A stretch of 41,208 bases of DNA from Myxococcaceae bacterium (GTDB lineage Bacteria > Myxococcota > Myxococcia > Myxococcales > Myxococcaceae). The number at the start of each line of letters is the position of its first letter. Position 1 is the first letter of the stretch. The stretch lies in contig JAFGNZ010000310.1 in assembly GCA_016926755.1 (NCBI GenBank), positions 1 through 41,208 of the forward strand, in the 5' to 3' direction. Below the pieces are notes generated by a model. That model was not told where the DNA came from. It ran no database searches and saw only the letters and a list, made by a program, of their open reading frames with translations. The translations under genes and the position numbers were made by a program. Of the stretch, positions 11,456-14,560 are shown in pieces.

Positions 11456-14400
11456 TCAGCCGGTCGCTGCGAAGGGCCCCCGTGCCGCGAAGGCCTGCGC
11501 TTCGGCCCCGCTGTCAGCGGTAGGGATGAACTCGATCCGCCCCGCGCAGGACTGCCGGGTGCTCTCCGAGACGGTGACGCCGCCCGCTTCGGCTCGCGCG
11601 GAGAGCTGGAGCGCCTGCTCCAGCGGCGCCCCCATCACCGCATACTCCATCCGTCCCCCTTGCAGCCCCACGTTGCCGATCACGGCCTCGCCGGTGGACA
11701 CCCCGACCCGAATCTCCGGCCACAGGCCGTTCGCCTCCGCCTGCCTCAGCGCCTCCAGCCTGGACTGGATCGCCAGCGCGGCCTCCACCGCCCGCTGCGC
11801 GTGATCCGGCAGGGAGATGGGATCCCCGAAGACCGCCAGCAGCCCCTTGCCCTGGAGGGACTCGACGCGCCCCTTGCGCCGCACCACCTCCTCGGTCATC
11901 GCCTGGAAGACGCGGCGCAGGCCCTGGACCCACTCCTCCGGGGGTGTCTGCTCCAGCATCTCCTCGGGGCTCCGCACCTGCGCGTACAGCACGGACACGC
12001 GCTTGCGTGCGCCCTCGAGCAGCGCCGGGCGCCGCGCCTCCGCCAGCAGCCGTCCCAGGTCCGTCTCGTCGATGTAGCCATCGAAGGCGCTGCGCACGAG
12101 CGAGCGCTCGCGCTCCTCGGCGGAGAGCCGCCCCGACAGCACGAGCGCGAACGCCAGCACGGAGGCCATCATCGGCCCGAGCGGCCCCAGCACCAGCCCG
12201 TTCCTGGCCAGCAGCAGCGTGCCCCCCAGGATGCCGAACAACATCACCAGCACCGAGGCGAAGGTGAGGGTCGGCCGCAGCGCGAGCGCCGCCGCCGTGA
12301 GCAGCGCGCCGCACAGGAGGATCAGCCCGAGCTGCCACGCACGGGGCACCTCGCTCACGGGGTGTTGCTCCAGCAGATCGCTCAGCAGCGCGGCGTGCAG
12401 CAGCACCAGCGGCAGCGTCATGCCGTTGGCGAAGGGCCCCAGGTCTCGGATGCTCTCCGCGGTCTGGCCGATGAGCACGTACTTGTCCCGGAGCCGCTCG
12501 ACGACCTCGGGGGGGAAGGTGGGGGGATCCGTCTCCCCCAGCGAGTCGTACAGCGCGCCGTAGGACAGGAAGTGGTCGCCGTCGGGCATCCGGAAGCTGG
12601 CGAGCAGGGCACCCTCATGGTTCAGGGGGATGTGCAGCGGGCCCACGCGCAGCCCCTCCTGCTCCTGGAGGAGGCCGGTGCCAGGGGCCATCCCGTTGCC
12701 GAGCAGGTACGTGCTCAGCGCGAGCGAGGGCAGGGTGCGCCCGGCGACCTCTGCCAGCAGATAGGCGCCGTGGACGTTGCCGGAGGCGGAGCGGGCCACC
12801 TCCACCTGGGCCACCAGCGAGCCGTTCAACAGGGGCTCCACGGGCATCAGGATGCGCCCGCAGGCAAAGCGGGGCGACGGGCCCGCCGGGATCGACGAGG
12901 GCTCCACCTGCACGGCGAGCCGCTCCAGATCGACGCCCTGGTCCACGGTGCAAGGGACCGCCAGCGCCACCCGCCCGTAGCGGGTGATGACCTTGCCGAG
13001 CTCCGCGTCCGCCTCGGGGCCGTCTCGCGCGGGCAGGTAGAAGAAAGTGTCCACCCCCACCGCGCGGACGCCCGCGCGCTCCAGGGCCTCCAGCAGGCGC
13101 GCCTGCTTGCGGCGCGGCACGGGCCACCCGAGCTGGCGGATGGCGGCCTGATCGATGGCGAGGATGAAGACGTCCGGGTTCCAGGGCCGCGGGCGGGACG
13201 TGAGGAGCAGGCCCTGGGCACGCTCCTCGAAGCTGCGCCACGCCTGGGTGGAGGCGACGGCCGCGACCAGCGCGGTGGCCAGCGCGCCCATGAGCACGCC
13301 CCGGCGCACGCGCTGCCGGAACCGGGCCCGCGAGGACTCCTCCTCCTCCGGATCCCGGCTCAGCACCGTGAGCAGCGCCTCCATGCTCGGGAAGCGCTCC
13401 TCGGGCTTGGGGCTCAGGCCGCGGAGCACCGCCTCGTGCACCCAGGGCGGCACCTTCATCTTCGTGCGAGGCGGCTGGAGCTTCCGCTCGTAGATGACCG
13501 CCACCAGCGCGGTGGGATCCTGGCCCTTGAAGGGGCGCCGCCCGTAGAGGGCCTCGTAGAGCGCCACGCAGAAGCTGAACTGATCGCACCGCCCGTCGGC
13601 GGGCCGCAGCAGCATCTGCTCGGGCGCCATGTACCCGGGCGTGCCCATCACGAGGCCCGTCTGGGTGAGCTCCTGCTGAAGCAGCGCGGCCGGCCTCTCG
13701 GCGGGGGCCTCCGGTGTCACGGGCTCCGCCTCCGGCGGGGTATCCGCGGAGCGCGCCAGCCCGAAGTCCGACACCTGGACGGCGCCGTCCACGCCGATGA
13801 GGACGTTGCTCGGCTTGAAGTCCCGGTGGATGAGGCCCGCGGCGTGGGCGGCGGCCAGGCCCTCGCCGGCCTTGCGGAACATCTCCAGGATCTGGCGGAG
13901 GGCGCGCCGGGTGCGCATCCACTCCTTGAGCGTGGTGCCCTCCACGTACTCCATGGCCACGAAGAGCTGGCCCTGCCAGGTGACGACGTCGTGGACGGCC
14001 ACCACGTGGGGGTGCGAGACGCGCGCCATGGCCTGCGCCTCGCGGAGCAGGCGGGCGCGGTTCTCCGGGCTGGACGACAGGGCCGGGTGCAGCAGCTTGA
14101 TGGCCACCCGGCGGTCCAGCTCCGGATCGTGCGCGAGGTACACCGCCCCCATGCCTCCCTGGCCCAGCACGCGATCGATCACGTAGCGGCCGATGCGAGT
14201 CCCGGAGGGGACGTTCGCCGCGTCCTGAGCGGGCGCATCCGCCTGGGGTGGGGCGCCGCCACCGGTGGGAGCGTCGGGGCGTGATGCGCCGGAGGGGCTG
14301 CTGCTCGGGCGCAGCTGGACGCGCAGGGGGAGGGTCTCCAGCTCCGGCGATCGAGGAAGCGGGGATGGGGGCGCTGCCTGGAGCTCCTTCGCGTCCTCCC

Positions 14401-14560
14401 CCAGCAAGGACTGGCACCGCGAGCACCCCGCGAGGTGCGCCGTGATCCGCTGCCTGCGGTCCTCGGGGAGCTGCCCCTGGGCGAAGAGCGCCACCTCATG
14501 CGCCTTCAGGCAGGCAGCGGAGGGGGGATCCGAGGGAGGGCTCTGGGGCGGGGAGGGCAT
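11456..14560 (-). CDS. Ser/Thr protein kinase with zinc finger, CHASE2 sensor and degenerate cyclase domain
   Basis: 1034 residues; GGAGGG stands five bases before ATG 14560. Order of parts: HC2-type zinc finger (H42, C46, C49; also C17, H21) as in anti-sigma factors; Pro-rich linker; kinase domain about 122-400 with GQGGMG loop, Lys155, HRD 245-247, Asn252 and DFG 265-267, all intact; membrane helix about 421-441; CHASE2 sensor domain about 450-700 (VFILAIDQAAIRQLGWP); three membrane helices about 735-830; and from about 850 a class III nucleotidyl cyclase fold. In that last domain the two metal-binding Asp are Gln861 and Lys905, and the GDxVNxAAR-type motif reads GAPLEQALQ (977-985), losing Asp, Asn and Arg. 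So an active kinase is joined to a cyclase domain that cannot work by the known mechanism. The signal sensed is unknown. Confidence 0.9.
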   Translation of the reverse strand: MPSPPQSPPSDPPSAACLKAHEVALFAQGQLPEDRRQRITAHLAGCSRCQSLLGEDAKELQAAPPSPLPRSPELETLPLRVQLRPSSSPSGASRPDAPTGGGAPPQADAPAQDAANVPSGTRIGRYVIDRVLGQGGMGAVYLAHDPELDRRVAIKLLHPALSSSPENRARLLREAQAMARVSHPHVVAVHDVVTWQGQLFVAMEYVEGTTLKEWMRTRRALRQILEMFRKAGEGLAAAHAAGLIHRDFKPSNVLIGVDGAVQVSDFGLARSADTPPEAEPVTPEAPAERPAALLQQELTQTGLVMGTPGYMAPEQMLLRPADGRCDQFSFCVALYEALYGRRPFKGQDPTALVAVIYERKLQPPRTKMKVPPWVHEAVLRGLSPKPEERFPSMEALLTVLSRDPEEEESSRARFRQRVRRGVLMGALATALVAAVASTQAWRSFEERAQGLLLTSRPRPWNPDVFILAIDQAAIRQLGWPVPRRKQARLLEALERAGVRAVGVDTFFYLPARDGPEADAELGKVITRYGRVALAVPCTVDQGVDLERLAVQVEPSSIPAGPSPRFACGRILMPVEPLLNGSLVAQVEVARSASGNVHGAYLLAEVAGRTLPSLALSTYLLGNGMAPGTGLLQEQEGLRVGPLHIPLNHEGALLASFRMPDGDHFLSYGALYDSLGETDPPTFPPEVVERLRDKYVLIGQTAESIRDLGPFANGMTLPLVLLHAALLSDLLEQHPVSEVPRAWQLGLILLCGALLTAAALALRPTLTFASVLVMLFGILGGTLLLARNGLVLGPLGPMMASVLAFALVLSGRLSAEERERSLVRSAFDGYIDETDLGRLLAEARRPALLEGARKRVSVLYAQVRSPEEMLEQTPPEEWVQGLRRVFQAMTEEVVRRKGRVESLQGKGLLAVFGDPISLPDHAQRAVEAALAIQSRLEALRQAEANGLWPEIRVGVSTGEAVIGNVGLQGGRMEYAVMGAPLEQALQLSARAEAGGVTVSESTRQSCAGRIEFIPTADSGAEAQAFAARGPFAATG

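Follow-up and report, generated by a model that had tools for sequence, protein, structure and literature searches.

What can a class III cyclase domain do in a receptor kinase once its metal-binding, base-recognising and transition-state residues have all been replaced? The question is raised by a gene on contig JAFGNZ010000310.1 of a Myxococcaceae bacterium (assembly GCA_016926755.1), a stretch of 41,208 nucleotides that was analysed at full length and is referred to here as the window. From its sequence, the gene is predicted to encode a membrane protein with the order zf-HC2, kinase, transmembrane segment, CHASE2, further transmembrane segments and pseudo-cyclase. We consider it probable that a CHASE2 receptor cyclase was here rewired into a receptor kinase, in which the former cyclase would be kept as a dimerising, signal-coupling module.

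Active site and fold of the cyclase half

Class III cyclases use six residues in catalysis, namely 2 Asp that bind metal, a Lys and an Asp that determine base specificity, and an Asn and an Arg that act on the transition state. The canonical D K D D N R reads Q S K A E Q at positions 861, 901, 905, 978, 981, and 985 of the window protein. An initial annotation of this DNA had reported that both metal Asp are replaced (Q861 and K905), that the segment GAPLEQALQ from residue 977 is devoid of the Asp, Asn, and Arg, and that the scaffold motif GVSTGEAVIGNVG is present from residue 953, and all these positions are exact. One further loss had gone unmentioned, that of the base-specificity Lys (S901). 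The base-specificity Asp is variable in many cyclase domains whose remaining residues are intact.

A search with the tail of the protein in 145 genomes of the order revealed near relatives, among the matches listed, in 3 of the 4 genomes of genus g12 (G034, G110, and G111), with tails 61-62% identical to that of the window protein over 622 residues. Two of these orthologues read W S E S E Q at the six sites and the third W S E S D Q. None of the three has any of the six catalytic residues. The initial annotation had pointed out that intact orthologues would speak for a local decay; with the same six losses in all three, local decay or sequencing error is ruled out. It had also proposed to check whether the substitutions themselves are conserved: all six residues are lost in all four proteins and S901 and Q985 are identical throughout, whereas positions 861, 905, and 978 differ between the window protein and the orthologues, and position 981 differs in one of them. 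The three orthologues are open frames, and neither they nor the window gene have a stop, frameshift, or truncation.

We then compared the catalytic positions with the rest of the domain. The reference set comprised 35 domains (4 of them kinase-fused) with all six residues in place, and 24 columns were conserved in 85% or more of these. As the domains had been selected for the six residues, full conservation of the six corresponding columns follows from the design. Of the catalytic positions, 0 of 6 are retained in the window protein, compared to 13 of 18 other conserved positions (Fisher p = 0.0034); the G034 orthologue retains 0 of 6 compared to 15 of 18 (p = 0.0006). The loss of the catalytic positions is selective and beyond chance.

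Single-sequence structure prediction of the cyclase tail gave a predicted local distance difference test (pLDDT) of 38.6, and it was replaced by an AlphaFold model from residue 831 built on a 47-row alignment, comprising the window sequence and 46 cyclase rows from the viral_contigs set (34 of the 80 loci were omitted because of stop codons or more than 90% likeness). This model had a pLDDT of 79.6 and a predicted template modelling score (pTM) of 0.79. Foldseek matched it to Cya2 (2w01; E = 1.1e-14, template modelling score 0.75), and the best solved matches in a structure comparison included CyaC (1wc1; Z = 22.5), Cya2 (2w01; Z = 22.3), and CyaB (3r5g; Z = 22.2), with a root-mean-square deviation of about 2 Å. 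A profile of the four tails matched 2w01 at E = 7.7e-22, and positions 3-164 (Cya2, 2w01) and 3-154 (CyaB, 3r5g) of its 187 were aligned. The comparison with active cyclases that the initial annotation had proposed (Z about 22) thus predicts a class III fold that is kept despite the lost catalytic residues. The end part of the linker at residues 813-850 is modelled as a helix and can be aligned to the pre-cyclase linker found in active enzymes.

The kinase half appears, by its motifs, to be a working Hanks-type kinase. K155 (the VAIK Lys), E174 of the alpha-C helix, HRD at 245-247 (D247), N252, and DFG at 265-267 (D265) are complete and identical in the window protein and the three orthologues, and the positions reported previously for the Lys, HRD, Asn, and DFG are exact. 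Pfam assigned four domains to the window protein, all scoring over the cut-off: zf-HC2 (26-50; E = 2.1e-5, 24.9 bits with a cut-off of 22.2), Pkinase (126-362; E = 5e-39), CHASE2 (430-756; E = 8.9e-34), and Guanylate_cyc (853-1005; E = 5.3e-12). The zf-HC2 residues C17, H21, H42, C46, and C49 are all conserved across the three orthologues. We read the hydrophobic stretch at residues 741-812, from its length by hydropathy rather than from a transmembrane predictor, as three transmembrane segments of the kind that usually follow CHASE2. Given this stretch and the first transmembrane segment at residues 418-440, the kinase and the cyclase domain should be cytoplasmic and CHASE2 outside. Pfam and hydropathy support the layout with zf-HC2 in front and CHASE2 in the middle as an external sensor, as originally suggested.

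Origin of the fusion and role of the former cyclase

The next tail matches listed (L094-L096 in G190, G151, and G145; E = 4e-71 to 8e-66) are CHASE2-cyclase-like frames of 644-790 amino acids in which no kinase was detected. Their residues read DKDPNR or DKDRNR, with five of the six kept (both metal Asp, Lys, Asn, and Arg). When these relatives were included in the tree, from which four short rows were omitted, the window family joined the CHASE2-cyclases (support 92, not starred). Of nine CHASE2 places in G000, G034, and G013, two have a fused kinase (the window gene and its orthologue in G034), and no kinase was detected for the other seven. A kinase-CHASE2-cyclase with an intact cyclase was not found among 20 long cyclase frames chosen for length from the matches listed; one of these (L311 in G055) is kinase-fused, with fewer than 90 residues between kinase and cyclase and an intact cyclase (DKDDNR). 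The cyclase frames of the viral_contigs loci contained no kinase (0 of 81). As a separate observation, clade L072 (G000 C10:11592, with members in G004, G013, G034, G096, and G028), which has no detected kinase and carries CHASE2 by Pfam in G000, G034, and G013, has lost at least one essential residue in 6 of 6 genomes, and the residues lost differ (DKDDGW, AKDRNR, DKDGKF, DKDRKY, DKDDRR, and DKDDGR).

In the history that we favour, an N-terminal zf-HC2 and Hanks kinase would have been joined to a CHASE2 receptor cyclase, and the output would have shifted from cyclic-nucleotide synthesis to phosphorylation. Class III cyclases act as dimers and are driven by the helix leaving the membrane, and the pseudo-cyclase could for this reason hold two receptors in a signal-dependent dimer. 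A CHASE2 signal passed via the linker would then alter the mutual orientation of the two kinases and thereby their autophosphorylation. According to the accessible text of a report on S. meliloti, CHASE2-domain cyclases raise cAMP (cyclic AMP) synthesis on sensing a plant protein (PMC13001267), so that CHASE2 can be an input to the class III fold.

Several results weigh against this rewiring. The tail family has a narrow distribution: of 195 genomes searched across the phylum, 4 contain it among the matches listed, its own included, and the six other genomes of the window's genus gave no near tail match (about 30% identity, among the matches listed). In a tree without the CHASE2 relatives, the window family joined the kinase-receiver-cyclases instead (support 92, not starred); we favour the placement beside the CHASE2-cyclases because CHASE2 is shared. 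The structural model is partly steered toward the cyclase fold, since the 46 aligned rows are only 22-28% identical to the window sequence. The pseudo-cyclase also evolves faster than the kinase, with 55-58% identity between the window protein and the orthologues compared to 67-68% for the kinase and 65-66% for CHASE2 with its transmembrane segments. Within the g12 trio, omega was 0.28 for the kinase, 0.32 for CHASE2 with the transmembrane segments, and 0.65 (95% interval 0.36-1.28) for the pseudo-cyclase; obtained with the simple NG86 method from GC-rich DNA, these values are meaningful relative to one another. In 98.75% of bootstraps the pseudo-cyclase had a higher omega than the kinase, and in 10% its omega was 1 or more.

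The lower identity and higher omega are what one would expect if the cyclase domain were a relict that, once the kinase had become the output, was merely harmless and slowly decaying. Its omega is about twice that of the kinase with an upper bound above 1, its identity is the lowest of the three regions, and at three of the six sites no orthologue shares the residue of the window protein, a fourth site differing in one of them. We nevertheless find a relict unlikely, given four uninterrupted frames, the retention of most non-catalytic conserved positions in the window protein and the G034 orthologue, and the identity of S901 and Q985 in all four proteins. The tail is under weaker constraint than the kinase, yet the residue losses are selective. 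Because of this weaker constraint, selection on the fold is indicated, short of proof, and the earlier proposal of a fold selected without catalysis stands as far as the predicted fold and the losses shared by the orthologues are concerned, and is less firm where the omega estimate is concerned.

A nucleotide sensor, in which a nucleotide or cyclic nucleotide bound at the former active site would tune the kinase, seems to us somewhat more doubtful than a relict. It would be consistent with the fold predicted to be kept, and a binding or dominant-negative role has been suggested for inactive cyclic nucleotide monophosphate (cNMP) cyclase domains elsewhere in bacteria (PMC7159879, in the sections available); however, neither of the metal ligands and neither of the base-specificity residues (K and D) is left, and in the window protein the charge at one metal site is inverted by K905 (E in the orthologues). 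It is highly improbable that the domain serves as a decoy that captures a functional cyclase in its own cell, either silencing it or giving it a new target: class III domains do form dimers, and of 27 cyclase domains examined in the genome 15 have the four essential residues intact, but a Pfam scan of 10 window neighbours identified no cyclase among them. A catalytic heterodimer is likewise unlikely, because both half-sites are missing from the domain, the one with the two metal Asp as well as the one with Asn and Arg. Cyclase activity by an unrecognised mechanism, for which the predicted fold alone would speak, can practically be dismissed, since neither the window protein nor its three orthologues retain any of the residues for metal, base, or transition state.

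Kinase-fused cyclases across the family

The initial annotation had treated the pseudo-cyclase as a one-off, a view that does not hold, as both its genome and the wider family commonly contain other kinase-fused cyclases that lack essential residues. We surveyed the PF00211 places in G034 (18), G013 (23), and G150 (17), and 27 of the 28 in G000, with place C113:28485-28805 of G000 (a 122-amino-acid frame) excluded from all counts. The essential set consisted of the two Asp, the Asn, and the Arg; the presence of a kinase was judged by a profile of our own, and Pfam architecture was assigned to the G000 members only. In three family genomes (G000, G034, and G013), the essential set was kept in 1 of 16 kinase-fused compared to 40 of 52 other domains (p = 5e-7), and a repeat in three further family genomes (54 places) gave 3 of 12 compared to 29 of 42 (p = 0.009). 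Pooling the six genomes, 4 of 28 kinase-fused and 69 of 94 other domains kept the set (p = 2e-8), that is, 24 of 28 compared to 25 of 94 were without it; the addition of G150 gave 7 of 31 and 82 of 108 (p = 1e-7). By clade, intact domains amounted to 0 of 12 in the AAA/TPR type, 0 of 6 in the HEAT type, 0 of 2 in the window type, and 4 of 8 in the receiver type, so the four intact kinase-fused domains of the six family genomes all fall in one clade.

Against a general rule, the distant genome G150 has 3 of 3 kinase-fused cyclases intact (one by a partial kinase match), as is the kinase-fused cyclase of G055, another more distant genome, which lies outside the survey counts. Essential residues are also lost where no kinase is present, as the 25 of 94 domains above show. 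Rows within one clade are dependent, and a phylogeny-aware test gave only 2 safe independent pairs when confined to starred branches and 6 when all branches were counted, numbers too small to reach significance; the starred branches force only 2 changes of kinase label. We therefore propose, tentatively and with somewhat less than even confidence, that the family repeatedly made kinase-fused class III cyclases non-catalytic, with the CHASE2, AAA/TPR, and HEAT types dead wherever seen in the six genomes and the receiver type half-way, and that kinase-pseudocyclases form a broad bacterial signalling class mirroring the animal receptor guanylyl cyclases. For annotation, a Guanylate_cyc call in large kinase-rich genomes often does not denote a producer of cyclic nucleotides, with 49 of 122 domains in the six genomes lacking one of the four essential residues.

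Some clades deserve mention in their own right. The kinase-receiver-cyclase clade contains broken members (G000 C128 and C212, G004 4058740 and 460154) beside intact ones (G034 81488, G028 4924299, G096 7233542, and G004 5763962), possibly a snapshot of loss. Kinase-fused HEAT-type domains (L196, L198, L346, and L348; DQDEEA) keep both metal Asp and have lost Asn and Arg, and L076, L351, and L355 (RMNENR; AAA_16 by Pfam in L076) keep Asn and Arg and have lost the metal Asp. Complementary half-sites are found in the mammalian C1/C2 cyclase, and since those of DQDEEA and RMNENR are complementary on paper, a heterodimer could be imagined. Clade L086 (G000 C98, FHA-GAF-cyclase by Pfam in G000, with members in G034, G013, G004, G028, and G096) lacks essential residues in every one of the six genomes; Trp stands in place of Arg in 6 of 6, and Glu in place of the first metal Asp in six and of the second in five.

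Known relatives and gene neighbourhood

Kinase-cyclase and kinase-CHASE2 proteins are already published, and what appears to be new is their combination with a dead cyclase. The CHASE2 receptor cyclases, among them CyaD1, CyaD2, and CyaK of S. meliloti (PMC13001267, accessible text), share with the window protein CHASE2 and a class III domain in one membrane protein, a likeness that for S. meliloti is by description and for L094-L096 extends to most of the tail; the window protein differs in the added N-terminal zf-HC2 and kinase and in the lost cyclase residues. PKN2 of Myxococcus xanthus is, in the available sections of PMC1262709, a membrane protein with an intact Ser/Thr kinase fused to a guanylate-cyclase-like domain. 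In PKN2, the kinase and the transmembrane segment enclose the cyclase-like domain and the outer part has no match to a known domain, unlike the window protein, where the kinase is followed by transmembrane segment, CHASE2, transmembrane segments, and cyclase. Cyanobacterial Ser/Thr kinases also combine kinase and CHASE2 in one protein (PMC2176072); in the accessible text, cyclase is not among the 14 extra domain types listed, and CHASE2 is named as an exception to their C-terminal placement, whereas it follows the kinase in the window protein. Class III domains predicted to be inactive are described for vWA-MoxR systems, in other protein families and, in the part of that paper available, with no mention of a CHASE2 receptor kinase (PMC7159879).

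Metazoan receptor guanylyl cyclases likewise carry sensor, transmembrane segment, kinase fold, and class III fold in one chain with one catalytic fold dead, and the PKN2 authors state, in the sections available, that the kinase-like domain of the eukaryotic receptor cyclases has no catalytic residues (PMC1262709). By its motifs, the window protein reverses this arrangement of a dead kinase-like domain and a live cyclase, and it has the two folds at opposite ends of the membrane part, unlike the metazoan proteins. Provided that the dead cyclase has a function in the receptor, the protein would mirror the animal receptor cyclases in a bacterium, in a form testable in isolation, and would separate the shape role of a class III domain (to dimerise and relay membrane signals) from its chemistry. 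No account of a kinase-CHASE2-pseudocyclase, or of a kinase-linked excess of dead cyclases, was found among the open-licence papers listed.

The coordinates of the gene, its domains, and its neighbours are given in Table 1. GGAGG immediately precedes the ATG, and the third-position GC of 0.94 in the minus-strand frame 14560-11456 indicates that it is coding; a long plus-strand frame over the same DNA is taken as its GC-rich shadow.

Table 1. Coordinates in the window of the kinase-pseudo-cyclase gene, its parts, and adjoining genes
Feature	Coordinates	Strand	Basis or remark
Whole gene	11456..14560	minus	1034 aa; ATG at 14560, stop at 11456-11458
zf-HC2, residues about 17-50	14411..14512	minus	Pfam 26-50 and orthologue alignment
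Hanks-type Ser/Thr kinase domain, residues 121-400	13361..14200	minus	Pfam and motifs
First transmembrane segment, residues about 418-440	13241..13309	minus	hydropathy
CHASE2 sensing domain, residues 430-756	12293..13273	minus	Pfam
Hydrophobic stretch, residues 741-812	12125..12340	minus	hydropathy
Linker, residues 813-850	12011..12124	minus	alignment; model (from residue 831)
Class III pseudo-cyclase domain, residues 853-1005	11546..12004	minus	Pfam, profile, model
Q861, first metal Asp position	11978..11980	minus	W in three orthologues
S901, base-specificity Lys position	11858..11860	minus	S in all four proteins
K905, second metal Asp position	11846..11848	minus	E in three orthologues
A978, base-specificity Asp position	11627..11629	minus	S in three orthologues
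E981, catalytic (transition-state) Asn position	11618..11620	minus	E, E, D in orthologues
Q985, transition-state Arg position	11606..11608	minus	Q in all four proteins
Small Flp-pilin-like ORF (open reading frame)	11078..11449	plus	tail-to-tail with kinase gene
O-antigen-ligase-like gene, two family 4 glycosyltransferases, bacterial sugar transferase	9731-20073		flank kinase gene

The genes at 9731-20073 form, by their sequence, a surface polysaccharide locus, and with such neighbours one might guess at a role of the kinase in surface polysaccharide control; glycosyltransferase, sugar transferase, and O-antigen-ligase-like neighbours had no match within 10-20 kb around the orthologues. The small ORF at 11078-11449, which has no Pfam match, is presumably Flp-pilin-like, and a homologue adjoins all three orthologues (G034:C1:12175099, G111:C4:115711, and G110:C10:135598). 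The idea of a unique partnership between kinase and Flp-like gene is weakened by homologues in 90 of 96 family genomes. A lipoprotein-like ORF at 39902-40366 (minus strand), 25 kb from the kinase gene, has weak homologues (E = 4e-9 and 4e-7) in G111 and G110 (L071 7412-7768 and L070 7321-7665), where they lie near the 5' end of the kinase orthologue. The window also contains a vitamin B12-dependent class II ribonucleotide reductase at 27241-30036 (minus strand).

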